Positions 7,181-37,226 are shown, numbered from the stretch's first letter. The stretch: 37,226 nucleotides of DNA from Candidatus Bathyarchaeia archaeon (GCA_038880555.1 JAVZRN010000004.1:1-37226); one strand, 5' to 3'. Program-made: numbers and translations. Notes: a model not told the origin generated them from the sequence alone.

Positions 7181-7570
7181 TTATTTTTTCTTAATGTGAT
7201 TTTGCAACCAGTTCGTAACTTCATCAAAATTCATACTGCATTTGGCAATGTTCAGTAAAAGATTGACTGCTTCAGATATCTCCGCTTTAAGCTCAAAACC
7301 GTTTAAATCGAGAAACGTAGAGGTCGCACTATAGGCTGTTCTTTTGTTACCGTCCACAAATGGGTGAAGTTTATTAATTTCATAAAGTAATGAAGCAGCT
7401 TTCTGATAAATGGTTGAGCAAGGCTCGTATCCAAACTCGTTACGCTGTGGAGACTCTACGCATAGTTTGAGATTCCCAATGAATAAAATACCAGCTTCGC
7501 CACCTGTGTTTTTTAAAATTTCGTTATGAATCTCTAATATTTCTTCAAAGGTCAAGTAGCGTATGACCAT
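7181..7570 (-). CDS. doc: Doc/Fic-family toxin
   Basis: A 129-residue protein of the usual Doc length. The Fic motif is intact: H69-P-F-V-D73-G-N-K-R77 (HPFVDGNKRTAY), which matches HxFx(D/E)GNxR. Known family members transfer AMP or phosphate to target proteins; Doc itself phosphorylates elongation factor Tu. The N-terminal YLTFEEILEIHNEIL is also typical of Doc ('death on curing') proteins. The gene starts 3 bases after the stop of the upstream partner gene, the expected antitoxin-toxin order. Which modification this one carries out cannot be read from sequence. Likely a stability or anti-phage module of the provirus. Confidence 0.85.
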   Translation of the reverse strand: MVIRYLTFEEILEIHNEILKNTGGEAGILFIGNLKLCVESPQRNEFGYEPCSTIYQKAASLLYEINKLHPFVDGNKRTAYSATSTFLDLNGFELKAEISEAVNLLLNIAKCSMNFDEVTNWLQNHIKKK

Positions 7571-7573
7571 AAT

Positions 7574-7825
7574 TTAATATTTTGACAGTTCTTTCAAAAT
7601 ATTTATGTCTCTTGCTATAGTTCGTTTTAGAGCTTCTTTAAATTTTTGCCTTTCAATTTCTAATTTCAATGTAGGTAGTTTCAATATTATATTAACAATT
7701 CTCTCATCCCTTGAAGTAGCATTTTCATACGCATTTCTAATTCCATCCGTAACATCTACAATTTGCATGGCTGAGGTTAACCCTGACGTGCTTCTTGTCG
7801 GATCTTCGTGAATTTTAAAAGCCAT
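7574..7825 (-). CDS. Putative antitoxin partner of the Doc toxin
   Basis: About 83 residues from the ATG at 7825, chosen because GGAGAGG lies 9 bases upstream; a longer frame to 7870 has no such site. Sequence: an N-terminal DPTRSTSGLTSAMQIVDVTDGIRNAYENAT segment, then a helical C-terminus (KLEIERQKFKEALKRTIARDINILKELSKY). It does not look like the usual AbrB-like Phd/Doc partner or an RHH protein. Gene order and tight spacing suggest it neutralises the following toxin. The family is not recognised, so the antitoxin call is inference from position. Confidence 0.55.
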   Translation of the reverse strand: MAFKIHEDPTRSTSGLTSAMQIVDVTDGIRNAYENATSRDERIVNIILKLPTLKLEIERQKFKEALKRTIARDINILKELSKY

Positions 7826-7901
7826 TTTCTTGTTCCTCTCCGTCCATATATAACATGAAGTAGATTTCATTTATTTAGTTTACGAATTTCTCTTATCCTT
7901 T

Positions 7902-8915
7902 TCAGATGGAATTGTCCATAATCCAACTTTCGCTCAAAATCTTTTCTTGATACCCTATTGTTGGAATGGGAACTTGAGGCGGAGCTATCTGGATTCTTCT
8001 AATTTCCTTTATAGTTCTAAAAACGTGAGTAAGGTCTAACGATTCAATTATAGCTCTATTGAAGACGCCTGTAGATACTTCATCGGAACCTAAAATGGTT
8101 TCAGGATTATAAGGAGTGCTCATTTCAAGTAAATTGTTGTATTGTAAAAATAGGCCTATCATATCCTTCTCAAAATCCGGATCTGGCTCTATCACGGGCA
8201 AACCTATTTCTTTCGCCTCCTTTCGTCCGATAATATAGTCGTGTGAAAACCTACCTTTGTATATGGTGGTAGTTATCTGTTCTATTTTCTGTTCCTCCCG
8301 CATATGATAGCTTAAAAGTTTCTTCGCAAGAAAAACAATTTCTTGCCTAGTCCTAAACACTTGTCCTAATATAAGTGGGTGAACCTTTTTGGACAACACC
8401 TCAAAAACTTTAACTAAAGATTCTTCGCTTTTCAAACCTTGGTCCTTTGCTAAGTCTAGATAGCCTATCACGTCTTCAACGCTTACAGGGATAGGCCCAG
8501 GCGCATATGTTGGAGGGATTCCTTTAGGTAATGGTCCGAGAGGTGATTGCACGGAAGGGTCGATGGGACTTAATTGAGCCATTTTAGACAATATTATTCT
8601 GTCTGCCCCTAATGCAACAAGCGTTGCACAACTTAATGCCTTGAACGGGATAATTACATCAAATGAGTCACAATATTCTCTTATAAGGTTGACAAGCGCG
8701 TATCCAGCCATAGTAATTCCACCAGTGCTATATAAATACAAAGATATTTTCCTTTGATGTCCAATCTGAGTTAGATGCTGTAAGATGAAGGGGAAGGTGT
8801 CAAATGCTATTTTTGTTTCAAGCCCCCTGCGGTCTCCAGTTATGTATACTAATAATCGAGAGTTAGTTTTATCCTCAATATGACGGATAAGCTCCATTCG
8901 CTCATCTCTTGTCAT
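7902..8915 (-). CDS. Serine dehydrogenase proteinase-like (SDH_sah, ClpP/crotonase fold)
   Basis: A 337-residue protein of the SDH_sah family (ClpP/crotonase fold). Signature segments are LYSTGGITMAGYALVNLIRE (glycine-rich oxyanion region, residues 62-81), IIPFKALSCATLVALGADRI (residues 88-107, candidate nucleophile Ser95), and SKMAQLSPIDPSVQSPLGP (residues 110-128). Family members are proposed serine proteases related to SppA and are cytosolic when, as here, no signal peptide or membrane segment is present. ATG start with AGGGAG 6 bases upstream. It sits between the Doc module and the replication genes. The family is common in archaea and also in mobile islands; substrate unknown. A role as a protease effector in cell-death defence is a guess. 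Confidence 0.75.
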   Translation of the reverse strand: MTRDERMELIRHIEDKTNSRLLVYITGDRRGLETKIAFDTFPFILQHLTQIGHQRKISLYLYSTGGITMAGYALVNLIREYCDSFDVIIPFKALSCATLVALGADRIILSKMAQLSPIDPSVQSPLGPLPKGIPPTYAPGPIPVSVEDVIGYLDLAKDQGLKSEESLVKVFEVLSKKVHPLILGQVFRTRQEIVFLAKKLLSYHMREEQKIEQITTTIYKGRFSHDYIIGRKEAKEIGLPVIEPDPDFEKDMIGLFLQYNNLLEMSTPYNPETILGSDEVSTGVFNRAIIESLDLTHVFRTIKEIRRIQIAPPQVPIPTIGYQEKILSESWIMDNSI

Positions 8916-9621: not shown

Positions 9622-11118
9622 TCATCTCACAAATTCTATTCTGAAGCCTCGCTCGGTTATGGCGTAAAGCCTCTTCTGGTAGTTTTCAAACTCCTCTTCA
9701 GTCATCAGAATAATGTGTTCGGGTTCTTCTTTGGCTGAGTGCATTATCCTTCCAAATCTTTGGCTTTCCTGCATTCTGCTACCATAAAGGAAGGCTACTT
9801 CTATTACTCGTTCTATTCCTGGAAGGCTTACGCCCTCATCGCCCACACGGCTGACGACGCAGGCTTGGCTTTCCCTGATAATTTCAAGCCTATCCTTTGT
9901 TTCTCCGTAAACGAAGGGTATGTTGAAGGTTTTGGCTATCTTCTCGCCCAAATCAAGCCAGTCGCAGAAAATTAATGTTTTAACTGGGATTTGTAGCAGC
10001 TCGCTGAGCTTCCGTATTTTCTCACGGTTATCGCTTAAAATGTAAACTCGGAAGGTTGGTTTTCGCACTACCTGAAGCCTTATCAGTTCTTCCCAGCTCA
10101 TGCCCACTGGAAAGCCTGTCAAGGCGATGATGTAGTTTTCACGGCCGTCTTCACGGTATGGCGAGCCGCTGAAGCCCATGCGGTATTTAGTCTTTAATGT
10201 AGCCATGCGAACAAAAGTGTTAGCTGGAAGATGTTGTGTTTCATCCCAGATTACCAAGGTGTATTCGTTGTTTTTAACTTTGTCATAGGCGTGGTATGTG
10301 ACAACTTCTATTTCGTGGCGGTATTGCGGAATGTATTTGTTTATGCGTTCCAGCCACTGCTCCTTAAGCGTCAAAGTTGGCACGACAACAAGCTTTCTGC
10401 CTTTAACCCTTGCGAGGGCATATATCCCGAAAAGGCTTTTTCCGCTACCAAAAGCCCAGAAAACGCCTATGGCACCTTTGTTGAGGAACTCGTTCCAAGC
10501 GTATTCTTGATAGCTTCTAAGTTTTATGCCATCCCAAGGACGTAGGTCTTCCTCTTTAACCGGGGTTGGCATGAATGGAAGTGTGCCGTCTTCGATCATT
10601 TGGGCGATGAGCTTAAACTCGTAGCCCTTCTTTATGCGTAATCTATCCTCGCCTTCACGCCTCGTAATAAAATGTTTATATCGGCGTAAGGCTTCCTCTT
10701 GCAGTTCCTTACCAGTCAGCAGCATACCGTCATAGACCTTGAAGGGCAAGGGCTTAGCGAACTTGAACTTGTCTTCTAGGCTTGCAGGTATTTCGCTGAA
10801 CCATTTAACATAACGGTTCACAACAAAAATGTTGTAGCTTTTAGTGCTGCGTTCCAGCCAGCCAATCTGAAAATTCAGCCATTTAGGCGCAATAACATAC
10901 CATTCATTAGCCCTTTTTGGGATAATCACATAGGGCTCTTCAAAGAAAGGTTGTAAAAACTCCTTTCGCACTTGACTGAAGCGGAACAACTCCATTTTCC
11001 GCTCAAAATCGCTTTTAATCTGAGCTTGCAAAACATCAACGGAATGCTTCAACTCATCCAGCTTGGCTAGGGCTTCCATGACGCTTTGGCGGACCTCAGC
11101 CGTGTCAAGCTCGTTCAA
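9622..11118 (-). CDS. SF2 helicase, XPB-like, of the viral early operon
   Basis: A 498-residue helicase. Residues 1-40 are a coiled coil, residues 40-195 an N-terminal domain, then RSYQEYAWNEFL (Q-like region, 201-212), Walker A AFGSGKS (222-228), the motif II variant WDETQ (291-295), motif III FSGSP, and motif VI ESQRFGRIMH in the second RecA domain. The order and DETQ box are like XPB/Ssl2-type helicases. It overlaps the upstream small zinc gene by 4 bases. It probably unwinds viral DNA in replication or transcription. A gene with about 87% identical N-terminal 125 residues begins at 36851 in element B, so this helicase is a shared core gene of this virus group. Confidence 0.88.
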   Translation of the reverse strand: MNELDTAEVRQSVMEALAKLDELKHSVDVLQAQIKSDFERKMELFRFSQVRKEFLQPFFEEPYVIIPKRANEWYVIAPKWLNFQIGWLERSTKSYNIFVVNRYVKWFSEIPASLEDKFKFAKPLPFKVYDGMLLTGKELQEEALRRYKHFITRREGEDRLRIKKGYEFKLIAQMIEDGTLPFMPTPVKEEDLRPWDGIKLRSYQEYAWNEFLNKGAIGVFWAFGSGKSLFGIYALARVKGRKLVVVPTLTLKEQWLERINKYIPQYRHEIEVVTYHAYDKVKNNEYTLVIWDETQHLPANTFVRMATLKTKYRMGFSGSPYREDGRENYIIALTGFPVGMSWEELIRLQVVRKPTFRVYILSDNREKIRKLSELLQIPVKTLIFCDWLDLGEKIAKTFNIPFVYGETKDRLEIIRESQACVVSRVGDEGVSLPGIERVIEVAFLYGSRMQESQRFGRIMHSAKEEPEHIILMTEEEFENYQKRLYAITERGFRIEFVR

Positions 11119-18424: not shown

Positions 18425-18488
18425 CAAAAGCCAGAGGGCAAACAAGCCCGTTTCTGGCTTCTTTCTGCTGAAGCAAGCAGATTTGGAG

Positions 18489-18563
18489 TGCTCCGGGCGG
18501 GATTTGAACCCGCGTCTCCGGCTCGAAAGGCCGGAATACTTGACCGGGCTATACTACCGGAGC
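18489..18563 (-). tRNA. tRNA-Glu (anticodon TTC), attachment site of element A
   Basis: A complete cloverleaf on the reverse strand: acceptor stem GCTCCGG with CCGGAGC, anticodon stem CCGGC/GCCGG enclosing loop CTTTCGA with anticodon TTC (18527-18525), and T arm GCGGG-TTCAAAT-CCCGC. The discriminator base is A; no CCA is encoded. A 12-base palindrome GCAAATATTTGC (18592-18603) about 30 bases upstream is a good TATA box. The 3' end faces the integrase, the standard arrangement for a virus integrated into a tRNA gene, with the intact tRNA restored at this border. Confidence 0.95.
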
Positions 18564-27897: not shown

Positions 27898-28335
27898 TTA
27901 GGTTTGAGTCAGTTTGTTTTCGAGGTCTGAATATGTTATTGTTTTTATGAGTTTGCTTGCTGTTTTCTTTAGTTTTTCGTCTTCTGTTACTAGGGTGGCT
28001 TCCGCGTTTCTAGCTGTTGCTATGTATGAGGCGTCGTAGAAGGTTATCCCTTCTTTGTAGGCTATTTGGAGTGTGTTGGAAAAGTCTAGTTTTGTGAATT
28101 TTATTGTTTTTATCACGCCTCTTGTGGCTAAGTCTTTTATTGTGGTGGCGGTGTCTATGGCGTCCTCTATGGATATTGATTTCAATAATGTTGAAAGCTT
28201 CCAGAGGCTGTTACATGCTTCATATAGCGCTAGGTCAGTGGTGACCAAATCTTCACGGGAAGCCTCAAATAATAGCTGTTTGCCACGTCTAACGACCAGT
28301 GGCAATAGTGCTGAGGCGTCAAGTAAATACTTCAA
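27898..28335 (-). CDS. vapC: VapC toxin (PIN-domain ribonuclease)
   Basis: A 145-residue PIN protein: KYLLDASALLPLV with Asp6, TDLALYEACNSLW with Glu39, TFYDASYIATARN with Asp101, and LVTEDEKL with Asp119, the acidic set that binds metal in the PIN active site. VapC enzymes cleave tRNA or rRNA when not bound by antitoxin. It overlaps the upstream antitoxin gene by 4 bases, the usual arrangement, and is the closest element gene to lysS. Confidence 0.87.
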   Translation of the reverse strand: MKYLLDASALLPLVVRRGKQLLFEASREDLVTTDLALYEACNSLWKLSTLLKSISIEDAIDTATTIKDLATRGVIKTIKFTKLDFSNTLQIAYKEGITFYDASYIATARNAEATLVTEDEKLKKTASKLIKTITYSDLENKLTQT

Positions 28336-28562
28336 TGTGCTTCCCTATCTTCGCGTACAAGCTTGGCAACCAATTTCGGATCTATTCTGCGGCCCAATCG
28401 CTCCTTTAACCTATCCAACCTTTCCCCGAGATCCCTCAATTCCAATTCTACAAGATATTTTTCAAGCAATTTTCTCACAGTCTCGCTCACGTTAACATTG
28501 TATTTTTCCAACTTTTCCTTAATTTCCCTCGCAACCCTAATGGTTATGACGCTCATGTTCAC
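28332..28562 (-). CDS. vapB: VapB-type RHH antitoxin
   Basis: A 76-residue protein. SVITIRVAREIKEKLEKYN then VSETVRKLLEKYL form a ribbon-helix-helix domain, and a Lys/Arg/Glu-rich helix (ERLDRLKERLGRR) leads to the toxin-binding tail. The start is GTG 28562 or ATG 28556. A TATA box about 25 bases upstream places the transcript start at or near the first codon, suggesting a leaderless message. A palindrome directly before the start is the likely autoregulatory site. Confidence 0.82.
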   Translation of the reverse strand: MNMSVITIRVAREIKEKLEKYNVNVSETVRKLLEKYLVELELRDLGERLDRLKERLGRRIDPKLVAKLVREDREAH

Positions 28563-28635: not shown

Positions 28636-30516
28636 TCACAGCTTTCTTATTTTTCCTGGTTCTGGCTGGTATATTTGACCTTGTTGCGTTAAGCGCCATA
28701 TGGCTGTTTCAACAGCCGCCTTTTCCAAGCCTTCTTCTTCGTAGGCTTGTTTGACTATTTCTTCTATTGGGATTGTTTTGTTTGGAAGATTTTCCATAAG
28801 CCATTTCATGGCTTGGCTTAAGCCTTTCGTCTGTATTGTCTGAGGTTTCCAAAGCTCTTTCTTGGGCATAGCCTCCGCCTGCGCCTGAAGCGTTTGAGTG
28901 CTTACAGTGGCTTGCTTTATTTGGGGCTGGTAATCCATTAGAGTTACAGTTGGCGTAGCTTTCTCTTTAAGCAGTTCTGGCAGTTTCCTGTTTAGTTGGC
29001 TTATTATGCGCTTCATTTTTCTGGTTCTTGAAATGCTTGACCAGTAGAAGGCCTCGTCAACGGTGTCTTCGGCTATTAGGATTGTTACTTTTCCTGCTAC
29101 GCGTCTTCCTGTTCTGCCTCTGCGTTGTATGTAGCGTATCTCGCTTGGAACAGGCTCATAAAAAACTACGTGGTCAACTTCTGGAATGTCTAAGCCTTCT
29201 TCTGCTATGCTTGTGGCCACCAAAACGTTTGTTTCTCCGCTTCTAAGCTTTTCAAGGGCTTCACGCTGCTGCTCTTGGCTCATTCCCGGGTCGCCTTCCC
29301 TCTCGCCTTGACCAACGAAACGTTCAACCCTAAGCTTTGAATTGTTGTTTAGAGCTTTTACTAGAGTGTTTACTGTGTCGCGGTACTGCGTGAAAATTAT
29401 CAGCCTCGAGTCGGGTTTGGCTTGGAGCTGAGCCTCCAAAACTTTGACGAGCTCATTTACCTTTGGGTTTTGTGTTGCCATGCTGTTTCTAAGCGCTTTT
29501 CTAGCTTCAATAAAGAGTGGATCGTTTAGGATTGATTTGTGGCCTCTGCTTCCTTCCATGGCCATGCGTTTTAGGCTTTTCTCAATGAAGGCTTCAAGGG
29601 TTTCTGGGCCTTGGGATTCTATTAGCTCTATCATGTGGGCTATGCTTAGGGCTGCTGTGGCCTCCACTTTAAGCTGGTATAGGTATCCGCCTTCGCCTCC
29701 TCCAAGCCTACGCTGCAGTTCATCGTTAAGCTCAATTAAATCGCGCCTTGTTATGAAGGCTGGTTGCTTGTCTGTTAAAACGCCTAAGGCTTGTAGGCCC
29801 TTAACGCGTTCAACAAGCATCTGCCTAAGCCTATCCCGGACAGCCAAATACTCCTCTGGAGGCTTAACCCTTCGCCACTCAACTTCTATGGGCTGGATGT
29901 AGGGCTTAACGTCCTTATCCTCGTCTGTTCGGTGCTCTATGGCTGTTATGCCCAAATTTCTGCAGACTTCAGCTATTTTTTCTTCGCTTCCTCCTGGAGA
30001 GGCTGTCAAACCCAGAACTAGGGGTTTGCGGCACTGTCTAAAGTAGTAGGTGGCTATGCCAACGTAGGCGTAGTTCCCCCTAGCCCTATGAGCCTCATCA
30101 AAAATTATGAGCGAAACATTATCCAGCCTTAAAAGCCCGCTTTTCAAGTCGTTCCAAACACACTGCGGAGTAGCAAAAACAACCTTAGCCCTATTATATA
30201 GGGCGGCTCTATGGTTTGGCGGATAACGCCCAGTAACAAGCGCTAGTTCGGCTTCGTCAAACCATGTTTTGTCGAGAAAGGTTTGGTGGTGCTGCTGGAC
30301 AAGAGGCCGTGTGGGCGCTAAAAAGAATATTTTGCCCTCCTCCGCCCTCTCAATCGCTAAGAGTAGGGCTATAACGGTTTTTCCGAGGGCTGTTGGCAAA
30401 ACAACAAGCGTGTTACATTGGCGGGCTCTTTCCAGAATTTTGTTTTGGTATAGCCTATCCTCTACGGCTTTTTCCTTTAATAGCGGGTGCCAGACATAGC
30501 GTTTCTCAGCCAGCAT
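28636..30516 (-). CDS. Hef-like SF2 helicase without nuclease domain
   Basis: A 626-residue SF2 helicase of the Hef/Mph1/FANCM group. Motif I is LPTALGKT (residues 40-47), motif II is DEAH (140-143), motif III is GLTASPG, and motif VI is YIQRRGRTGRR. The insert with the helical part between the two RecA domains also fits Hef. The usual archaeal XPF-type nuclease half is missing: after residue 505 there is a low-complexity Gln/Thr linker, then a C-terminal winged-helix-like domain (NLPNKTIPIEEIVKQAYEEEG). In the family it remodels stalled forks. It overlaps nothing, but its small upstream neighbour ends 3 bases before it. Confidence 0.85.
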   Translation of the reverse strand: MLAEKRYVWHPLLKEKAVEDRLYQNKILERARQCNTLVVLPTALGKTVIALLLAIERAEEGKIFFLAPTRPLVQQHHQTFLDKTWFDEAELALVTGRYPPNHRAALYNRAKVVFATPQCVWNDLKSGLLRLDNVSLIIFDEAHRARGNYAYVGIATYYFRQCRKPLVLGLTASPGGSEEKIAEVCRNLGITAIEHRTDEDKDVKPYIQPIEVEWRRVKPPEEYLAVRDRLRQMLVERVKGLQALGVLTDKQPAFITRRDLIELNDELQRRLGGGEGGYLYQLKVEATAALSIAHMIELIESQGPETLEAFIEKSLKRMAMEGSRGHKSILNDPLFIEARKALRNSMATQNPKVNELVKVLEAQLQAKPDSRLIIFTQYRDTVNTLVKALNNNSKLRVERFVGQGEREGDPGMSQEQQREALEKLRSGETNVLVATSIAEEGLDIPEVDHVVFYEPVPSEIRYIQRRGRTGRRVAGKVTILIAEDTVDEAFYWSSISRTRKMKRIISQLNRKLPELLKEKATPTVTLMDYQPQIKQATVSTQTLQAQAEAMPKKELWKPQTIQTKGLSQAMKWLMENLPNKTIPIEEIVKQAYEEEGLEKAAVETAIWRLTQQGQIYQPEPGKIRKL

Positions 30517-30519
30517 CGC

Positions 30520-30789
30520 CTATAACTCCGCTGCTAGGCTTTCAATGGCCTTTTTGGCTTTCTCCCACTCCTCCTTAGACCTGAAAACAAACTTTTGCCG
30601 TCTTTTCCAGGAGTCTCCACGCTTAAACCATAGGTATAGGGCTATGTGTTTTCTTCCAAAAGCCTCGAGTAGGCCTGCGGCAGCCCACCAACGCCCACCC
30701 TTAAACAGGGTTTGAAAACGCAAAACTTTCACTTTCTCTGAAACTGGAAGCATTTCTTCCTCAGGTTTCTCTGTCAATAAAGCCCACAT
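30520..30789 (-). CDS. Small basic protein upstream of the Hef-like helicase
   Basis: An 89-residue protein rich in aromatic and basic residues (RFQTLFKGGRWWAAAGLLEAF, HIALYLWFKRGDSWKRRQKFV) ending with a helix (SKEEWEKAKKAIESLAAEL). Its stop is 3 bases before the helicase start, so it is probably a helicase partner or small regulator in the same operon. No family is recognised. It could bind nucleic acid, judging by charge, but this is unproven. Confidence 0.5.
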   Translation of the reverse strand: MWALLTEKPEEEMLPVSEKVKVLRFQTLFKGGRWWAAAGLLEAFGRKHIALYLWFKRGDSWKRRQKFVFRSKEEWEKAKKAIESLAAEL

Positions 30790-30895
30790 TAAAGTTTAAG
30801 GCGTATGGGATTTAAGATTAACGCACTCTTTGGGCTTTTATTTCACTTTAACTCAACTCTCTCCACTGTTTGAAAGGGTCGATTCGTCGCTGCTT

Positions 30896-30933
30896 TTTTA
30901 TACGCTTTTCCATGAACCGCATAATTTGCGGTT
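30896..30933. promoter_or_regulatory. Promoter and inverted repeat at the start of the rightward operon
   Basis: TTTTTATAC (about 30895-30903) is a TATA box for the rightward transcript. AACCGCA-TAATT-TGCGGTT (30915-30933) is a perfect 7-bp inverted repeat close to the expected transcript start and just before GGAGG (30934-30938) of the first gene. This suggests repression of the whole operon by a dimeric regulator, possibly one of the element's RHH proteins. Confidence 0.5.
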
Positions 30934-30948
30934 GGAGGCTGAACGCCA

Positions 30949-31203
30949 ATGCTCTCTAAAGCTTTGAATTTGGAGCTTGAGGGCTTGTCGGTTCTCCAGC
31001 GTAAGCTTCTCCTAGAACTCGTGCACAGATATCCGCATTATTGGGGCAAATTTACAAGCCATGAGTATAGCTGGCAAAGCCGGAAAGAAGCCCTAGAAGA
31101 GTTCCTGCAAAACCACCAAACCGAGTTGGCTGTAGAGTTTGCTAAATCCGGCTTGCATGGTAACGGCTGGAAAACAATAAGGAAGGGTGGAATACGTGTC
31201 TAG
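30949..31203 (+). CDS. Small protein, first gene of the rightward operon
   Basis: An 84-residue protein, mostly helical: SKALNLELEGLSVLQRKLLLELVHRY, then ALEEFLQNHQTELAVEF, and a GNGWKTIRKGG tail. The ATG has GGAGG 10 bases upstream. The end overlaps the next gene. The family is not recognised; the first helices could be a helix-turn-helix, but recognition residues are not clear. Confidence 0.5.
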   Translation: MLSKALNLELEGLSVLQRKLLLELVHRYPHYWGKFTSHEYSWQSRKEALEEFLQNHQTELAVEFAKSGLHGNGWKTIRKGGIRV

Positions 31204-31381
31204 GGCTGAGCATTGCAGGAATCCATGGAACGGTAAATGCAGAAACACGGACATTGAAGTTTTCATACTCTATAAAGGGGATAGGTTGCCCATTTGCAGG
31301 CGTTGCTGGAGCAAAATAGCAGACACCGACATAGAGTGGGGCGAACACACGCACTCAAAGGAGGGTAAGCGATGGAGTTAG
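31196..31381 (+). CDS. Small zinc-binding protein
   Basis: About 61 residues from GTG 31196 (GGGTGG 5 bases upstream). It contains HCRNPWNGKCR and CRRCWSK, giving a C-x8-C-x18-C-x2-C cluster with a His beside the first Cys. It resembles small zinc-ribbon proteins of archaeal viruses. The start overlaps the upstream stop, and its end overlaps the RadA-like start. Function unknown. Confidence 0.5.
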   Translation: MSRAEHCRNPWNGKCRNTDIEVFILYKGDRLPICRRCWSKIADTDIEWGEHTHSKEGKRWS

Positions 31382-32355
31382 AGCAGATTCCAGGCGTAGG
31401 CAAATCCATAGCCAAAAGGCTTAGGGACGCGGGCTTCCCAAACGTTGAAACTTTAGCTGTCACTCCTGCAAGGGAGGTTAAGGAGAAGGCTGGCTACGAA
31501 AAGCTTGAAGCTGCTCAGCGAATTGTTGAGGCTGCAAGGGAGCTTTTGGGTTGCAGGTTCATAACAGCCTACGAGCACTGGGAAATGACCCAAAAACGCT
31601 TGAGATGCACGACTGGAAGCAAGGCTCTTGACGCTCTTTTGGGCGGCGGCATAGAAACCCAGGCCATAACTGAGCTTGTGGGGCAGTATGGTTCTGGAAA
31701 AACCCAGCTCTGCCTGATGCTCTGCGTAACAGCCCAGCTTAAACCTGAACAGGGCGGCCTAGGCGGAAACGTACTTTACTTTGATACTGAGGGGACGTTC
31801 AGCTCCAACCGCGTCTACCAAATAGCAGCGGAAAACGGCTTGGATCCAGGCCAAACACTCCACAACATAATACTATCAAGGGTTTACACATCAGACCATC
31901 AAATGTTCCTACTGGACAATGCCTTCGAAAAATGCGCAGAGGAAAACGTAAAACTCGTGGTTGTGGACTCGGTCATATCCCATTTTAGAGGCGAATACTT
32001 GGGAAGGGAAACACTAGCCGACCGACAACAGAAGCTAAACCTTTACATGCACAAGCTCTTGCGCCTAGCTGAAATCCTAAATCTAGCCGTAGTTGTCACA
32101 AACCAAGCCCAGTCGGATCCAACACCACAATGGGGAAACCACCAAGCCACGGATAGGCCGGCTGGAGGCAACATACTGGCCCACGCATCCACAACGAGAG
32201 TCTGGCTGCGACGGGCTAAGGGCGAAGGTAAACGCATTGCAAGGGTCTTCGACTCTCCATGCCTGCCAGAGGGCGAATGCGTTTTCCGCATAACAGCAAA
32301 GAGCATAGAAGACGCGCCAGAAGAAAAGATTGAGGAAGCTGAAAAAGAGGAGTAG
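31372..32355 (+). CDS. RadA-family recombinase 1
   Basis: A 327-residue RadA-like ATPase. Residues 1-60 hold a helix-hairpin-helix domain (LEQIPGVGKSIAKRLRDAG, NVETLAV), linked by FITAYEHW, which carries the FxxA polymerisation motif. Walker A is GQYGSGKT (104-111), Walker B is LVVVDSVI (Asp199), and ESLGRETLADRQQKLN and VVTNQAQ mark the later core. It would form filaments on DNA for strand exchange. Start ATG 31372 follows GGAGGG, overlapping the zinc gene. The core is a full-length RadA, so this element carries its own recombinase. Confidence 0.87.
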   Translation: MELEQIPGVGKSIAKRLRDAGFPNVETLAVTPAREVKEKAGYEKLEAAQRIVEAARELLGCRFITAYEHWEMTQKRLRCTTGSKALDALLGGGIETQAITELVGQYGSGKTQLCLMLCVTAQLKPEQGGLGGNVLYFDTEGTFSSNRVYQIAAENGLDPGQTLHNIILSRVYTSDHQMFLLDNAFEKCAEENVKLVVVDSVISHFRGEYLGRETLADRQQKLNLYMHKLLRLAEILNLAVVVTNQAQSDPTPQWGNHQATDRPAGGNILAHASTTRVWLRRAKGEGKRIARVFDSPCLPEGECVFRITAKSIEDAPEEKIEEAEKEE

Positions 32356-32377
32356 GCGAATCTTTAGAGGTGAAGGT

Positions 32378-32662
32378 TTGGTTAGAATTCAGCGAAGGCT
32401 TTCAAGGAAACGTTATCTCGGCGGCAAATACGCCTACGAGTATGAGCGCCTATCACTGGATATACCCAGAAAATTTCACAAAAAATTGAAGCCCTTCGTA
32501 GGACAGGATTTAGACGTTGAAATAAGCGTTAAAGGCAGTTGCCTGGTCATAGCTTTAACCCCGAGAAAACGTTTCTGCACGCCGAACACCACCCGAGAAA
32601 AACCAACACCTGAAAGGCTTATTGGAGCTGAATTTTTACATGAAAATGCAAATCCGACTTAA
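32378..32662 (+). CDS. Small basic DNA-binding-like protein
   Basis: About 94 residues from TTG 32378 (GAGGTGA upstream). Sequence VRIQRRLSRKRYLGGKYAYEYERLSLDIPRKFHKKLKPFVGQDLDVEI followed by SVKGSCLVIALTPRKRF is basic, with an AbrB-like swapped-hairpin feel in the second half (IPRKFHKKLKPFVGQDLDVEISVKGSCLVI). The frame extends upstream to 32330, overlapping radA. It may be an AbrB-type regulator, but the pattern is weak. Confidence 0.5.
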   Translation: MVRIQRRLSRKRYLGGKYAYEYERLSLDIPRKFHKKLKPFVGQDLDVEISVKGSCLVIALTPRKRFCTPNTTREKPTPERLIGAEFLHENANPT

Positions 32663-32695
32663 ATATGGGCTGGCCGAAAAATTTGCACCTATAGG

Positions 32696-32715
32696 CGTTT
32701 CTGCAGGCAGAAACG
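32696..32715. promoter_or_regulatory. 20-base palindrome upstream of an RHH gene
   Basis: CGTTTCTGCAGGCAGAAACG is a near-perfect inverted repeat (9-bp arms with an AG centre) in the gap before the RHH gene at 32811. The half-site CGTTTCTGCA occurs also at 32570-32579 inside the previous gene. It is a likely operator. An A/T element at about 32658-32668 may be the promoter. The gap of 148 bases otherwise holds no convincing gene. Confidence 0.45.
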
Positions 32716-32810
32716 TTTTACCCGCAGCTTCAGCATACAAAAACCTGTTCATTAATTTAATTAGCGGCTTCCATGGATCTTGTTTTGGCATGCCACGGCG
32801 GTGAAGGGAA

Positions 32811-32993
32811 ATGGCAGTGGAGAACCAAGCTTTAGAAATACAGGCTTCTTTGAAAGGAAAGGTGAAAGAAAGATTCCTCAAGATTAAAAGGTTCAAGGGA
32901 CTGGCGGACGACGAGGTTCTTAGGCTTATGATCAACGAATATTTTGAGAAAAAATTGGCTGACAATAAGACTGGAGAGAAGACGGAATGTTAA
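32811..32993 (+). CDS. RHH-like regulator, element B family copy 1
   Basis: A 60-residue protein with ALEIQASLKGKVKERFLKIKRF then DDEVLRLMINEYFEKKL, a ribbon-helix-helix pattern. ATG has GGTGA about 6 bases upstream. It is clearly related by eye to the products at 33547-33717 and, on the reverse strand, 32990-33190 (shared RFLKIK, EVLR/EVIR and IN(E/D)Y parts). It ends convergently against the latter with a 4-base overlap. Confidence 0.65.
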   Translation: MAVENQALEIQASLKGKVKERFLKIKRFKGLADDEVLRLMINEYFEKKLADNKTGEKTEC

Positions 32994-33190
32994 CCCTTTT
33001 TTGATGATTTTAGGCTTTTCCTTATTTCTTCTTCGTGTTCTCTCCAATAATCGTTAATTAATGCGCGGATAACCTCAGTGTAGTTTTTGAGCCCCAAATG
33101 CTCCTTTATTTTTAGGAAGCGTTCTGCTATTTCGCCCTCAGCCCTCAAGTAAACCTTTAAAACTTCCCCTTCCTTTGAGCCCTTAGCCAT
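32990..33190 (-). CDS. RHH-like regulator, element B family copy 2
   Basis: A 66-residue protein: VLKVYLRAEGEIAERFLKIKEHLGL as strand and helix, then NYTEVIRALINDYWREHEEEI as second helix. The ATG has GGAGGAGGAG 6 bases upstream. Related to its neighbours at 32811 and 33547. It is on the opposite strand from the operon and is one of at least five RHH genes in 1.3 kb. Confidence 0.65.
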   Translation of the reverse strand: MAKGSKEGEVLKVYLRAEGEIAERFLKIKEHLGLKNYTEVIRALINDYWREHEEEIRKSLKSSKKG

Positions 33191-33288
33191 TTAAGACTCC
33201 TCCTCCTTTTTGTCGCAAAATGTGTACATTTGACACACGCCCCTCAAGGTATAGCCCACCCCATATTTAAGGCTTCTTAGCGTTATGC

Positions 33289-33435
33289 TCATTTCGCCTT
33301 CTCCATCCTAATCCAGTTCTTAACCGCCTCGCGGATAAGCGTTGATAGGCTGCGTCCGGTTTCGCTGTTCTTCTTTTTCAGAAACTTTATGTCTTCTGGG
33401 TCTAGGAATACGGTTACTCCCCTCTTTCTCGCCAT
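33289..33435 (-). CDS. Short RHH-like protein
   Basis: A 48-residue protein: RKRGVTVFLDPEDIKFLKKK and SETGRSLSTLIREAVKNWIRM form the strand and two helices of a ribbon-helix-helix domain. The ATG at 33435 has GGTGA 4 bases upstream. It is divergent from the RHH gene at 33547 and shares its promoter region. Confidence 0.62.
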   Translation of the reverse strand: MARKRGVTVFLDPEDIKFLKKKNSETGRSLSTLIREAVKNWIRMEKAK

Positions 33436-33486
33436 GCAATCACCTTCAATAATGTATTTGAAGCTATTTGTTTATAAGTTTTTCCA

Positions 33487-33523
33487 CTTTTTGCAACTAT
33501 CAAAAGTTTTATATTGCAAAAAG
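33487..33523. promoter_or_regulatory. Divergent promoter with 10-bp inverted arms
   Basis: CTTTTTGCAA (33487-33496) and TTGCAAAAAG (33514-33523) are perfect 10-bp inverted arms 17 bases apart. The TATA-like AGTTTTATA for the rightward gene lies between them, and a TATAAAC-like element for the leftward gene lies to their left (about 33468-33480). An RHH or AbrB dimer on both arms could silence both directions. Confidence 0.55.
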
Positions 33524-33546
33524 CCACAAAAAACTAAATTGTGTGG

Positions 33547-33717
33547 ATGAGTATGTCCGAAGGCAAAAACATCCTGGACATCCGCGTGAAGCTGAAAGGC
33601 GAAGTTAGAAACCGCTTCCTACGGATAAAAAGCGCCAAGGGCCTGACAAACAACACTGAGGTTCTGAGGCTGATCATCAACGAGTATTTTGAGAAGAATC
33701 TTGCAAAGAGGGACTGA
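33547..33717 (+). CDS. RHH-like regulator, element B family copy 3
   Basis: A 56-residue protein: ILDIRVKLKGEVRNRFLRIKSAKGL and TEVLRLIINEYFEKNL, close to the product at 32811. A second ATG at 33553 could be the start. It begins a close set of genes: 3 bases to the next, 12 bases to the third, then the second RadA-like gene. It may control the RadA/ParB/primase operon. Confidence 0.62.
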   Translation: MSMSEGKNILDIRVKLKGEVRNRFLRIKSAKGLTNNTEVLRLIINEYFEKNLAKRD

Positions 33718-33720
33718 AAG

Positions 33721-33882
33721 ATGGGTGGAAGATCACCTGCAGACGTGGTTTCGTTAGAAGACCGCGAGTTTATTCGCGAGGAGCTGGCCTGGCTTGCCGA
33801 GTGGGTTCGCAGCCGATATCCAAAACTCAACTTTTGCGACATTCGACGCTTCCTGACTGAAATGGTTTCCGTGAGCGTTTAG
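33721..33882 (+). CDS. Very small protein, unknown
   Basis: A 53-residue protein with two helices, VVSLEDREFIREELAWLAEWVRSRYPKL and FCDIRRFLTEMVSV. The ATG has GAGGGA about 7 bases upstream. It is flanked by RHH genes in the same operon. Family not recognised; it could pair with a neighbour. Confidence 0.5.
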   Translation: MGGRSPADVVSLEDREFIREELAWLAEWVRSRYPKLNFCDIRRFLTEMVSVSV

Positions 33883-33894
33883 GAGGAAAGGGTT

Positions 33895-34056
33895 TTGGCT
33901 CGTAAAGTCAAGGTTTCAGCCTCTATCGAGCAGGAAGACCTTGAGAGGCTTGAGGATTTAAGCCGTGAAACAGGCAAGTCGATAAGCTCCATTGTTTGCA
34001 TGGCCGTTAAGGAGTTTTTGGAAAAGAGGCTTAAAGGAGGGAAGAGTGTTGAGTGA
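33895..34056 (+). CDS. RHH-like protein upstream of the second RadA
   Basis: A 53-residue protein from a TTG at 33895 with AGGAGG 8 bases upstream: ARKVKVSASIEQEDLERLEDL then TGKSISSIVCMAVKEFLEKRL, a clear ribbon-helix-helix pattern. Its end overlaps the start of the RadA-like gene by several bases. Position suggests control of the recombination operon. Confidence 0.65.
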   Translation: MARKVKVSASIEQEDLERLEDLSRETGKSISSIVCMAVKEFLEKRLKGGKSVE

Positions 34057-35050
34057 AGCTGTTAGCCAAATAAGCGAGTGCGAGTTCGAAGAGTTTAGGG
34101 ATCCCCTCCTAAAGCTCAAAGGTGTAACGCCCGAGTTTGCAGCCCTGCTCAAGGAGGCGGGCTATTATACTTTAGAGTCGATTGCTGCTGAGGTTCCCCA
34201 CTTTCTATTTCAAAGAATCGGCGAGAAAATGGGTTTTAGCCTCGATAAGGCTGAGGCTCTCATTAGGGAGGCGCGAAGCAAACTTGACATCCGCATATTG
34301 TCGGCTAAAGAGCTTTACGAGGAAGAGCTTAGGCGCAAAACAATTCCGACGGGCTCAAGGGCTCTTGACGAGATTTTGGGCGGCGGTATAAGAACTCAGG
34401 AGATTACTGAGGTTTGTGGAAGCTACGCTTGCGGCAAAACAGAGCTTGTATACACAACAGCCGTTTTAGCGCCTAAAGCCTTAGGCGGAGACGTTCTAAT
34501 CTTGGACACGGAGGCCACCCTAAGCGTAACCCGAATACGCCAAATCGCAAAGGCGAGGGATCTTAACCCAGACGAGGCGATAAGCCCCATCCACCTGCGG
34601 AGGGTTCCCTCATCCTCAGACCTTACAGCAACCCTTGAAACAGCCCACAAGTTCATCAAAGAAAAAGGCATCCGCTACCTGGCCATTGACAGCTTTGTAT
34701 CCCCTTTTAGAAGGGAGTATCCTGGACGCGAGCTATTATGCCCAAGGCAGCAGAAGCTGAACTACGCCATCGGCCTACTAATAAAACTGGCAAGGGCTTA
34801 CGACATGGCTGTCCTCGTAACAAACCAGGTTCAGGCAACCCCAGTAGCCCAGTACACAACAACAAGACCCGAGTTTTTGAAACCGCCTATAGGCGGTTAC
34901 GTAATGGCGTATGGAGCCAACAACCGCATATACCTACAAGAAACCGACAAGCCAAACGTCAGCATAGCCACGCTAATAGACTCAAGCTACCTTCCACGGC
35001 AAAGCAGAACCATAAGGATAACTGAAAGGGGAATAGAAGACGCAGATTAG
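34046..35050 (+). CDS. RadA-family recombinase 2
   Basis: About 334 residues from GTG 34046, which has GGAGG 5 bases upstream and overlaps the RHH gene (TTG 34049 is possible; the frame is open back to 33992). It has a helix-hairpin-helix N-terminal part (LLKLKGVTPEFAALLKEAGYYTLESIA), Walker A GSYACGKTE, Walker B YLAIDSFV and VLVTNQV. The linker has ILSAKELYEEEL, in which Ile replaces the Phe of the FxxA motif. It differs strongly from the first RadA-like protein, so the element has two distinct recombinases, perhaps a filament former and a helper. Confidence 0.82.
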   Translation: MLSEAVSQISECEFEEFRDPLLKLKGVTPEFAALLKEAGYYTLESIAAEVPHFLFQRIGEKMGFSLDKAEALIREARSKLDIRILSAKELYEEELRRKTIPTGSRALDEILGGGIRTQEITEVCGSYACGKTELVYTTAVLAPKALGGDVLILDTEATLSVTRIRQIAKARDLNPDEAISPIHLRRVPSSSDLTATLETAHKFIKEKGIRYLAIDSFVSPFRREYPGRELLCPRQQKLNYAIGLLIKLARAYDMAVLVTNQVQATPVAQYTTTRPEFLKPPIGGYVMAYGANNRIYLQETDKPNVSIATLIDSSYLPRQSRTIRITERGIEDAD

Positions 35051-35134
35051 AAAAAGCCAAATTTTCGCCCCTTTTTCGAAAAGAGGCAAAACTTCAACAT
35101 AATATTAACACCGTCGGTAAGGTGATGATAAAAA

Positions 35135-36124
35135 TTGGCGGAAACTGAAAAAGAAGGCAAAATTGAGCGTATCCCTATAGAGCAGTTGAAGCCTCTACCA
35201 ATGCACTTCACGGTTATCGGCAGAGAAGAAGAGGACATGCTAAGAGAAGACATGAAAACCAAAGACTTGAACAGCATAGACCCCCTGCTTGTTAGGAGGA
35301 TGACCCCTGAAGAGATTGAAGAAGCCAAAGAGAAATACCCCTTTGCCAAATACGAAATCATTGACGGACATACAAGATGGGAAATCGCCAAGCTTCTCAA
35401 ATGGACTGAAATGAGGGCCACAATCATAGAGTGCAGCCGCGACGAAGCCTACATCATAAACTACAAGCGAAACAAGGAGAGAGGATTTGTCGACCCAATG
35501 CTTGAAGCCCTATGCTTCAACCACTTTTACCAGAAGGGCTTCACAGCCTCACAGGTTGCAGACATGTTCCACGTCAAAGAGACAACAGTATGGAATACAC
35601 TACAACGCTTAAAAGTGGGGAAAGAGGCGAGACGCAAAATAATCCAGCAAGCCTTCATGGGAAAGCCCATAACAGCAAAACACATTGAAGTCGTAGCCAC
35701 ACTGCCAGAGGATAAGCAGCCAAAACTTGTTGAAACGATAACTGAAAAGGGGTTAAGCGCCAAAGAAGCAAGGAAAGTCGCCAAAGCACTCGTCACAAAG
35801 CCTGAAGTAGCCGAGAGAATCCTTGAACTACCAAAGCCGAAGCTTGTTGAAGAAGCTGAAAAAATTGTAACATCTCCTATAAAGCCGAAACCGCCAGAAG
35901 CAGCAGCCTACGAAAGGATCATGGAGTTAAAAGAGCATTATCCAATGATTTTAATCGACTACATATACACTAGATACAAAGGCAAATACTTGAAAGATGT
36001 CATTAAAGCCTCAATATTCGTCGTCTTCTGGGAAAAGCTAACGGAAAAAGAGAGGGAGGAAGTAGCCCAGAAGGCCATTAAATTGGCCGGAGAAAGAGGT
36101 TTTGAAGAGCCAGTCATTGGCTGA
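35135..36124 (+). CDS. ParB-like nuclease/partition domain protein
   Basis: A 329-residue protein. Residues about 10-110 are a ParB/Srx-type domain (IERIPIEQLKPLPMHF, KYEIIDGHTRWEIAKLLKW). The GHTRW motif takes the place of the usual GERR box. A helix-turn-helix part (FTASQVADMFHVKETTVWNTLQRLKV) follows, then a helical C-terminus. Start is TTG 35135 with GGTGA about 10 bases upstream. It may segregate the element or regulate its genes. No ParA gene is seen in the window. The 3' end overlaps the primase gene by 23 bases. Confidence 0.78.
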   Translation: MAETEKEGKIERIPIEQLKPLPMHFTVIGREEEDMLREDMKTKDLNSIDPLLVRRMTPEEIEEAKEKYPFAKYEIIDGHTRWEIAKLLKWTEMRATIIECSRDEAYIINYKRNKERGFVDPMLEALCFNHFYQKGFTASQVADMFHVKETTVWNTLQRLKVGKEARRKIIQQAFMGKPITAKHIEVVATLPEDKQPKLVETITEKGLSAKEARKVAKALVTKPEVAERILELPKPKLVEEAEKIVTSPIKPKPPEAAAYERIMELKEHYPMILIDYIYTRYKGKYLKDVIKASIFVVFWEKLTEKEREEVAQKAIKLAGERGFEEPVIG

Positions 36125-36752
36125 CAGGCTTTTCCAAATTTTCATCGCTAGAACCGACGTTTTCGGCGTGGAAGATGAAACTGGAGCTTGGCGCACAGAA
36201 AGGGGAAAACTCACGGAAGAAACCGTTGAAAAACACCTAAAAGGCGAATTCACTTTAGGAGTCTATCCATTCAACCAGAAAGGCTACATAAAATGGGTTC
36301 TAGCAGACCTAGACTTCAAAGGCGGACAAGCAGTCTATGAATACATGTGCAAAAAATTCTCTCAAGAATCCACACTAATGGTTGATACAGGCGGAAAAGG
36401 AACCCACATCTACGTCATTCTCCAGCCCACACCCCTATGGCAAATAGCAAACCAAATAGGCCAAATGGAAAAGGAACTGAAAATACGCCTCTTCCCAAAA
36501 CAGCGAGAATGGAGAACCGACACAATAGGCAATTTTGTCCGCCTACCACTAGGAAAACACCAAAAAACAGGAAATTGGAGCCAAATTGTTAAAGGCGACA
36601 TATGGACGGTTAAGCCCTACATCACCTGTGTTCACCGCGTTTACGACCAGTTTGGAGATGGAAACTGCCTAGCCATCGACGGCACAGTAGGTTACTGCCA
36701 AGAAAACCTATGCCCATACATTTTGAAGAGGAGTCAACGCTATGGACGTTAA
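36102..36752 (+). CDS. Archaeo-eukaryotic primase, TOTE-type domain
   Basis: A 216-residue protein. The primase pattern reads FIARTDVFGVED, then KGEFTLGVYPFNQ, ADLDF (Asp69 and Asp71, the metal pair), DTGGKGTHIYV (His102), LFPKQ, and GNFVRLPLGKH. These match the archaeo-eukaryotic primase domain of TOTE conflict systems. It would make primers for the element. The ending has a Cys pair, CVHR and CLA/CQENLC, perhaps zinc-binding. Start is TTG 36102; TTG 36117 is also possible. A small gene and the helicase start follow at once. Confidence 0.8.
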   Translation: MKSQSLADRLFQIFIARTDVFGVEDETGAWRTERGKLTEETVEKHLKGEFTLGVYPFNQKGYIKWVLADLDFKGGQAVYEYMCKKFSQESTLMVDTGGKGTHIYVILQPTPLWQIANQIGQMEKELKIRLFPKQREWRTDTIGNFVRLPLGKHQKTGNWSQIVKGDIWTVKPYITCVHRVYDQFGDGNCLAIDGTVGYCQENLCPYILKRSQRYGR

Positions 36753-36846
36753 CCCGAGGCTTTTAGCCCTCGCCGATAAACTTGAGCGGACGGCTTTAAA
36801 CCTGGAAGCCTACTATGCCCTCATCGAAAAATCAAGGAGAAGCTAA
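36742..36846 (+). CDS. Small linker gene between primase and helicase
   Basis: A 34-residue reading frame from ATG 36742 (GAGGAG about 8 bases upstream), overlapping the primase stop and ending 4 bases before the helicase start. Sequence DVNPRLLALADKLERTALN, then LEAYYALIEKSRRS, is an amphipathic helix. Tiny coupled genes like this are common in archaeal viruses. Expression is supported only by the ribosome-binding site and spacing. Confidence 0.45.
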   Translation: MDVNPRLLALADKLERTALNLEAYYALIEKSRRS

Positions 36847-36850
36847 AAGC

Positions 36851-37226
36851 TTGAGCGAGCTCGACACGGCTGATGTCCGCAAAAAAGTTAACGAAGCCCT
36901 CGCAAAGCTGGAAGAATTAAAACATTCAATTGATGTTTTGCAGAGTCAAATCCGCTGTGACTTTGAGCGTAAAATGGAGCTTTTCCGTTTCAGCCAGGTA
37001 CGCCGAGAATTTTTGGAGCTTTTCTTTGAAGAGCCATACGTTATTATTCCTAAAAGGGCTAATGAATGGTATGTTATCGCCCCAAAATGGCTTAATTTCA
37101 GCATAGGCTGGCTTGAACGCTCAACAAAAAGCTACAACATTTTCGTCGTAAACCGCTACGTCAAGTGGTTCAGCGAAATCCCGCCAAGCCTAGAAGAAAA
37201 GTTCAAGTTCGCTAAACCTTTGCCAT
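36851..37226 (+). CDS. Start of an SF2 helicase homologous to the one in element A (partial)
   Basis: A TTG at 36851 (AGGAG about 11 bases upstream) opens a frame that runs off the window after 125 codons. By eye, the product matches the first 125 residues of the element A helicase (11118-10744, reverse strand) with about 16 differences. Shared parts include FERKMELFRFSQVR, the RANEWYVIAPKWLNF block and FVVNRYVKWFSEIP. The helicase motifs themselves lie beyond the window. Primase and helicase are adjacent, giving a compact replication module. Confidence 0.85.
   Translation, partial: MSELDTADVRKKVNEALAKLEELKHSIDVLQSQIRCDFERKMELFRFSQVRREFLELFFEEPYVIIPKRANEWYVIAPKWLNFSIGWLERSTKSYNIFVVNRYVKWFSEIPPSLEEKFKFAKPLP

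Follow-up and report, generated by a model that had tools for sequence, protein, structure and literature searches.

A putative mosaic replication-recombination block of viral or integrative type in Bathyarchaeia, with a primase-fold protein bearing arginine at the motif III position

Archaeo-eukaryotic primases (AEPs) of mobile elements that adjoin or are fused to helicases are well described (PMC5862659), and are also found in bathyarchaeial proviruses (PMC11705971). Motif III of the AEP superfamily has the form hD/E (PMC10345425). In the Marinitoga CAPP protein (MsCAPP), E260 is a ligand of metal A and also contacts the initiating nucleotide at its 2'-OH; mutations in motifs I and III abolish catalysis (reviewed in PMC10345425). 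Separate AEP and helicase genes are already known in viruses, for example in Gordonia phage Orchid.

We analyzed a contiguous stretch of 37,226 nucleotides from a Candidatus Bathyarchaeia archaeon (the window), whose right-hand part encodes a small AEP alongside two RadA recombinases, a ParB-like protein and an XPB-like SF2 helicase, a gene set that fits known mobile-element replication kits. The AEP domain of Marinitoga CAPP (7NQD/7NQF/7P9J) resembles the window primase in its AEP fold, D-x-D and sxH motifs, FPKQ, and GN..K.PLG.H, but the window primase lacks Cas neighbors and a TPR part, has Arg129 in place of Glu E260, and carries a four-cysteine (Cys4) tail. Bathyarchaeal modules that combine an AEP with a D5/SF3 helicase (L033, L036, L039, L040, L042) share the host group, the mobile context and an AEP adjoining a replication gene; they differ in consisting of a 337-aa AEP followed by a 540-600-aa gene, in retaining the motif III Glu, and in that several of the partners are D5/SF3-type rather than XPB-like SF2. 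Their AEPs are longer than the window primase and 25-28% identical to it. TOTE-type fusions, from plasmids of Massilia, Dinoroseobacter, Pseudonocardia and Arcobacter and from the viral L049, share the AEP superfamily and an XPB-like SF2 helicase function, but form one chain where the window has two genes, and differ in clade and motifs. Orchid, a tailed virus with endonuclease VII genes, is comparable in its small stand-alone AEP (gp8) and separate helicase (gp1); its motif III (ELELFPKQ), however, keeps the Glu, its helicase has no SF2 match, and the stretch examined contains no RadA or ParB. Bathyarchaeial head-tailed proviruses match the window in host class, tRNA integration, and primase and helicase genes, and the main text describing them does not mention RadA or ParB (PMC11705971).

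The window is the complete contig C4 of a 1.75-Mb, 4-contig bathyarchaeal MAG. Its first 127 bp are exactly equal to the end of contig C3 and its right end has no match among the contig ends, which rules out a circular contig or plasmid. The left 18.5 kb represent one end of a head-tail provirus, with the other part at C3:153892-172892. A 44-bp exact direct repeat of the 3' part of a tRNA-Glu gene occurs at 18487-18530 of the window and in C3, 1000 bp into its last 20 kb, implying a provirus of about 37.4 kb split across the two contigs. Within the window this provirus encodes an archaeal phage integrase (17349-18476) and a complete XPB-like SF2 helicase (9622..11118, minus strand; ERCC3_RAD25_C 1.8e-12, XPB 8.6e-31), and profile searches of the provirus identified a major head protein (3e-13), a terminase (phrog_2, 3e-37) and a tail protein, together with a weak portal match (Portal_Mu 0.013). 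A related second integrase (73% aa identity), encoded at 7269-8510 of the stretch C3:1-20000, overlaps a tRNA-Arg gene and is probably the sign of another provirus of the same family. From approximately 18.6 to 28 kb the window contains host-like genes, part of which are conserved at 86-88% nucleotide identity in two congeners. Read by eye, 27898-28560 encodes a PIN-domain-like toxin with a possible antitoxin upstream; this region is found at a different locus in genome G001. Elsewhere in the assembly, an inverted repeat of 1.35 kb, with 95% identity between its copies, lies at the two ends of contig C1 and may be an insertion sequence at which the assembly broke.

The block of interest begins at 28.6 kb. 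The closest genome carrying it is G002, a same-genus Bathyarchaeota MAG (JAGTQI010000001.1). On the left, the block is adjoined by a Hef/FANCM-like SF2 helicase of 626 aa (28636..30516, minus strand; NCBIfam Hef, 626 bits) that covers positions 3-555 of the 781-position Hef model and therefore has no XPF-type nuclease part. The helicase holds this position in the window and in a second copy on contig C2 (95% aa identity), and the G002 copy stands alone elsewhere (C32); its membership in the block is uncertain. The genes that follow, on the plus strand unless stated otherwise, start with an 84-aa protein without a Pfam match (30949..31203), common to G002 and two IMG/VR viral contigs, followed by RadA1 (31372..32355; Rad51 4.9e-84). 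Three small RHH-like ORFs recognized by eye (32811-32993 on the plus strand, 32990-33190 on the minus strand, and 33541-33717 on the plus strand) are probable regulators. Next come a 53-aa RHH protein of the CopG/Arc-like kind (33895..34056; Pfam RHH_3 1.7e-6, phrog_3180 9e-7), the divergent RadA2 (34049..35050; Rad51 2.2e-47), an A+T-rich gap (35051..35134), a ParB-superfamily protein (35135..36124; HTH_ParB 9e-7, phrog_4715 4e-16), the 216-aa AEP (36102..36752), a tiny 34-aa ORF (36742..36846), and the N-terminal 125 codons of an XPB-like SF2 helicase that is ended by the contig end (36851..37225). The analysis bore out an earlier sequence-only reading, which had listed RHH, RadA, ParB-like, primase, tiny-protein and helicase genes here, with the helicase visible in part, and both the colinear counterpart in G002 and the low dN/dS values given below speak against a chance result; the same neighborhood also holds RadA1, further RHH-like genes and the Hef-like helicase, all absent from that list. 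The reading had also described the ParB-like protein as having GHTRW instead of GERR, and GHTRW is indeed present at residues 78-82, so that the protein lacks the GERR-type CTP motif of canonical CTPase ParB.

Both recombinases show the Rad51 core, Walker A and HhH features of archaeal RadA, with RadA1 above the NCBIfam RadA equivalog cut-off (381.7 bits vs 259) and RadA2 just below it (250.7 bits). RadA2 keeps the HhH and a Walker A of the form GSYACGKT, and alignment with G002 suggests that it likely starts at the TTG at 34049 rather than at 33992. The genome's best-scoring RadA lies on C1, which makes both proteins extra copies, and RadA1 can be ruled out as the host RadA given the higher-scoring RadA at C1:187845. 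Substitutions between the window and G002, a single pair of species, give a dN of 0.05 vs a dS of 0.57-0.68 for RadA2, and a dN/dS of about 0.1-0.2 for the primase and ParB genes. The ParB protein occurs in 2 of the 121 genomes of the order, and no relatives of it were found in IMG/VR. A search for iterons or an origin in 30500-37226 returned weak, chance-like repeats only.

The AlphaFold model of the primase has a mean pLDDT of 81, with a core above 90. Its closest PDB match by Foldseek is MsCAPP (3.9e-13), far ahead of LigD, RepB', ORF904 and PriS, and a profile search of solved structures likewise returned Marinitoga CAPP (1e-33). The much weaker matches to PriS and LigD structures, together with a Pfam DNA_primase_S E-value of 0.22, rule out that the protein is a host PriS or LigD primase, an outcome that the sequence-only reading had named as refuting it. 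The AEP fold is accompanied by motif I (D69xD71) and motif II (GTH102), but the motif III acid is missing: Arg129 occupies the position of MsCAPP E260, as equated by counting the 7NQD chain against D177/D179, and the G002 protein, the only orthologue, has Arg as well. This position is acidic in 29 of the 31 rows of our motif table. Nevertheless, the primase gene shows a dN of 0.16-0.17 vs a dS of 0.79-1.43 between the two species; this purifying selection suggests that the protein is in use despite the missing motif III acid. Both primases also conserve a C-terminal knuckle, C176-x12-C189-x9-C199-x4-C204. We found no Cys4 tail of this kind in IMG/VR, and outside the two primases it occurred in one stand-alone small ORF only (G010:C9). 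At 9897-10010 of L035, such a small ORF, whose knuckle reads NCLAIDGTVGYC...CP as in the primase tail, lies directly upstream of a 795-aa D5-type primase-helicase. It may represent a free-standing domain absent from Pfam. As a separate observation, positions 1300-3462 of L149 encode a bathyarchaeal AEP in a 1059-aa frame, the C-terminal part of which is MCM-like by eye.

Comparison of the copies points to a mosaic organization. G002 contains one colinear block of ~6 kb (82% nucleotide identity) matching window 30843-36835, with the 84-aa gene, RadA1, RHH-type genes, RadA2, ParB, primase and tiny protein in common; 3' of it lie genes for a 67-aa protein, a methylase-like protein, an ATP-dependent DNA ligase (5.9e-31) and a tyrosine-recombinase-like protein. 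In the host genome itself, contig C2 starts with a 91%-identical copy of window 28638-35105, from the Hef-like helicase to RadA2. At 35105 the homology stops; on C2 this point falls within a perfect 30-bp palindrome (C2:146-175, CAACATACTATACCCGGGTATAGTATGTTG) 3' of the second RadA2 copy, and a different gene follows. The gap in the window (35051..35134) is a probable cassette joint and a possible operator or origin, and the C2 palindrome is a possible operator or recombination site. On the IMG/VR contigs L137 and L138, which also have tail-like genes, the 84-aa gene and RadA1 (83-90% aa identity) lie downstream of genes that share 82-84% and 46% identity with tRNA-Glu provirus genes.

A second joint (36836-36846) is located in front of the helicase and was seen in this copy only. 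Homology to G002 ends at 36835, and homology to the provirus begins 12 bp later, at 36847; the N-terminal part of the tiny ORF matches a 53-aa protein of G002 before its sequence changes at the joint. The 125 helicase codons have no Pfam match of their own, and the gene is recognized as that of an XPB-like SF2 helicase because its product is 87% identical (80% at the nucleotide level) to the N-terminus of the provirus helicase. The XPB-like helicase is kept in relatives, including a terminase-bearing provirus, and is absent from G002. This absence and the switch in homology indicate that the module is mosaic: recombinase, ParB and primase genes move as a unit and the helicase is exchanged. In L139, a 77%-identical helicase gene has genes for pilin-like and large membrane proteins as its neighbors, not head-tail genes; the XPB-like helicase therefore moves between element types. 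No structural virus genes were found beside the right-hand block, where the window and the C2 copy both end within the block; no capsid or terminase was recognized near the G002 copy, and no element ends or att sites of the block were found.

The sequence-only reading had called the primase one of the TOTE kind and had suggested that the locus is a source or relative of TOTE elements, or else a new primase-based replicon type. Such a split system, with AEP and SF2 helicase in a pre-fusion state used in conflict or transposition, is suggested by the match to Pfam PF22548 'AEP-TOTE' (8.4e-17; 62 bits vs a cut-off of 27), by a best viral fold match labeled TOTE primase domain, and by the viral L049, in which an AEP of this kind and an XPB-like helicase form a single chain of 1007 aa; a search of IMG/VR via L049 for further TOTE relatives recovered L049 alone. 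The Pfam name, however, is applied broadly to AEPs of viruses and plasmids. In our 31-row AEP tree, the AEP-SF2 helicase fusions form their own clade (support 100/99) that excludes the window and G002 primases, both of which sit on a long branch. The best tree places TOTE and window primases as sisters, an arrangement without support (78/28), and the data also allow the window primase to group with AEPs of bathyarchaeal mobile elements (p-AU 0.42). The signatures shared by the fusions collected in this analysis (YDRxFPxQD...GNLIALPL) are missing from the window primase, which has IRLFPKQ...GNFVRLPLGKH; the AEP ends at 36752 and a separate gene, beginning at 36851, encodes the helicase, which matches other XPB-like proteins of Bathyarchaeia (6.7e-26) better than it does TOTE helicases (5e-13) and is not retained in G002. 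We consider a split TOTE-type system or source improbable, and neither the TOTE assignment nor the proposed ancestry is supported. What stands of the earlier proposal is a primase-based replication and recombination gene set on mobile DNA with separate primase and helicase genes. The reading had named dispersal of the neighboring genes in related elements as refuting, and this holds by half: RadA1, RadA2, ParB and primase stay together in G002 and the helicase does not. The AEP is best assigned to the broad CAPP/viral/TOTE-like assemblage, outside the TOTE fusion clade.

Loss of the motif III acid in both known members, truncation of the tiny ORF at the joint and the rarity of the ParB protein in the order could also reflect a decaying chromosomal relic whose AEP has lost catalysis. 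The main frames are, however, all open, and purifying selection acts on the primase and RadA2 in the pair of species, so that we regard an inactive remnant as unlikely. A defense or CRISPR-adaptation module with a CAPP-like primase, carried on a mobile element in place of a replication kit, seems more doubtful still: CAPP is both the nearest solved structure and the matching NCBIfam profile, and PADLOC PrimPol models match as well, but the score against the CAPP type A1 profile (NF040561) is 56.7 bits vs a cut-off of 200, no Cas1 or Cas2 homologue was recognized among the neighbors in the window or G002, and the context is one of ParB, RadA, ligase and integrase genes.

The explanation that we favor, with reasonable confidence, is an integrated head-tail virus of Bathyarchaeia, or an integrative element closely related to one, whose replication-recombination block, mosaic in make-up, is the region described here. 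In such a block, the RHH proteins would control the operon, and the ParB-like protein, which has an HTH, could bind a site near its own gene and mark an origin or partition site. The XPB-like helicase would open or remodel duplex DNA, and the AEP would prime or, given the Arg at the motif III position, act mainly as a template- or nucleotide-binding initiator. The RadA proteins may drive strand invasion and restart forks in recombination-dependent replication, with the DNA copied by host polymerases. More tentatively, and with considerable doubt, we suggest that a viral protein of primase fold has been retained under selection without the motif III metal-binding acid, representing either a new active-site solution for primer synthesis or a non-catalytic, origin-binding initiator that works with the ParB-like protein and the recombinase pair in recombination-dependent replication of an archaeal virus.

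How bathyarchaeal viruses and integrated elements replicate has hardly been studied, and the pairing of two RadA proteins with ParB and an AEP, the mosaic joints and the missing motif III acid are new. The joints indicate that primase and helicase cassettes are swapped among elements, a process relevant to the possible origin of TOTE and other fused primase-helicases. The small AEP of this block departs from the active-site rule that its superfamily follows: should it prove able to prime, the motif III rule would need revision; otherwise, it would be a case of an AEP used as an initiator.
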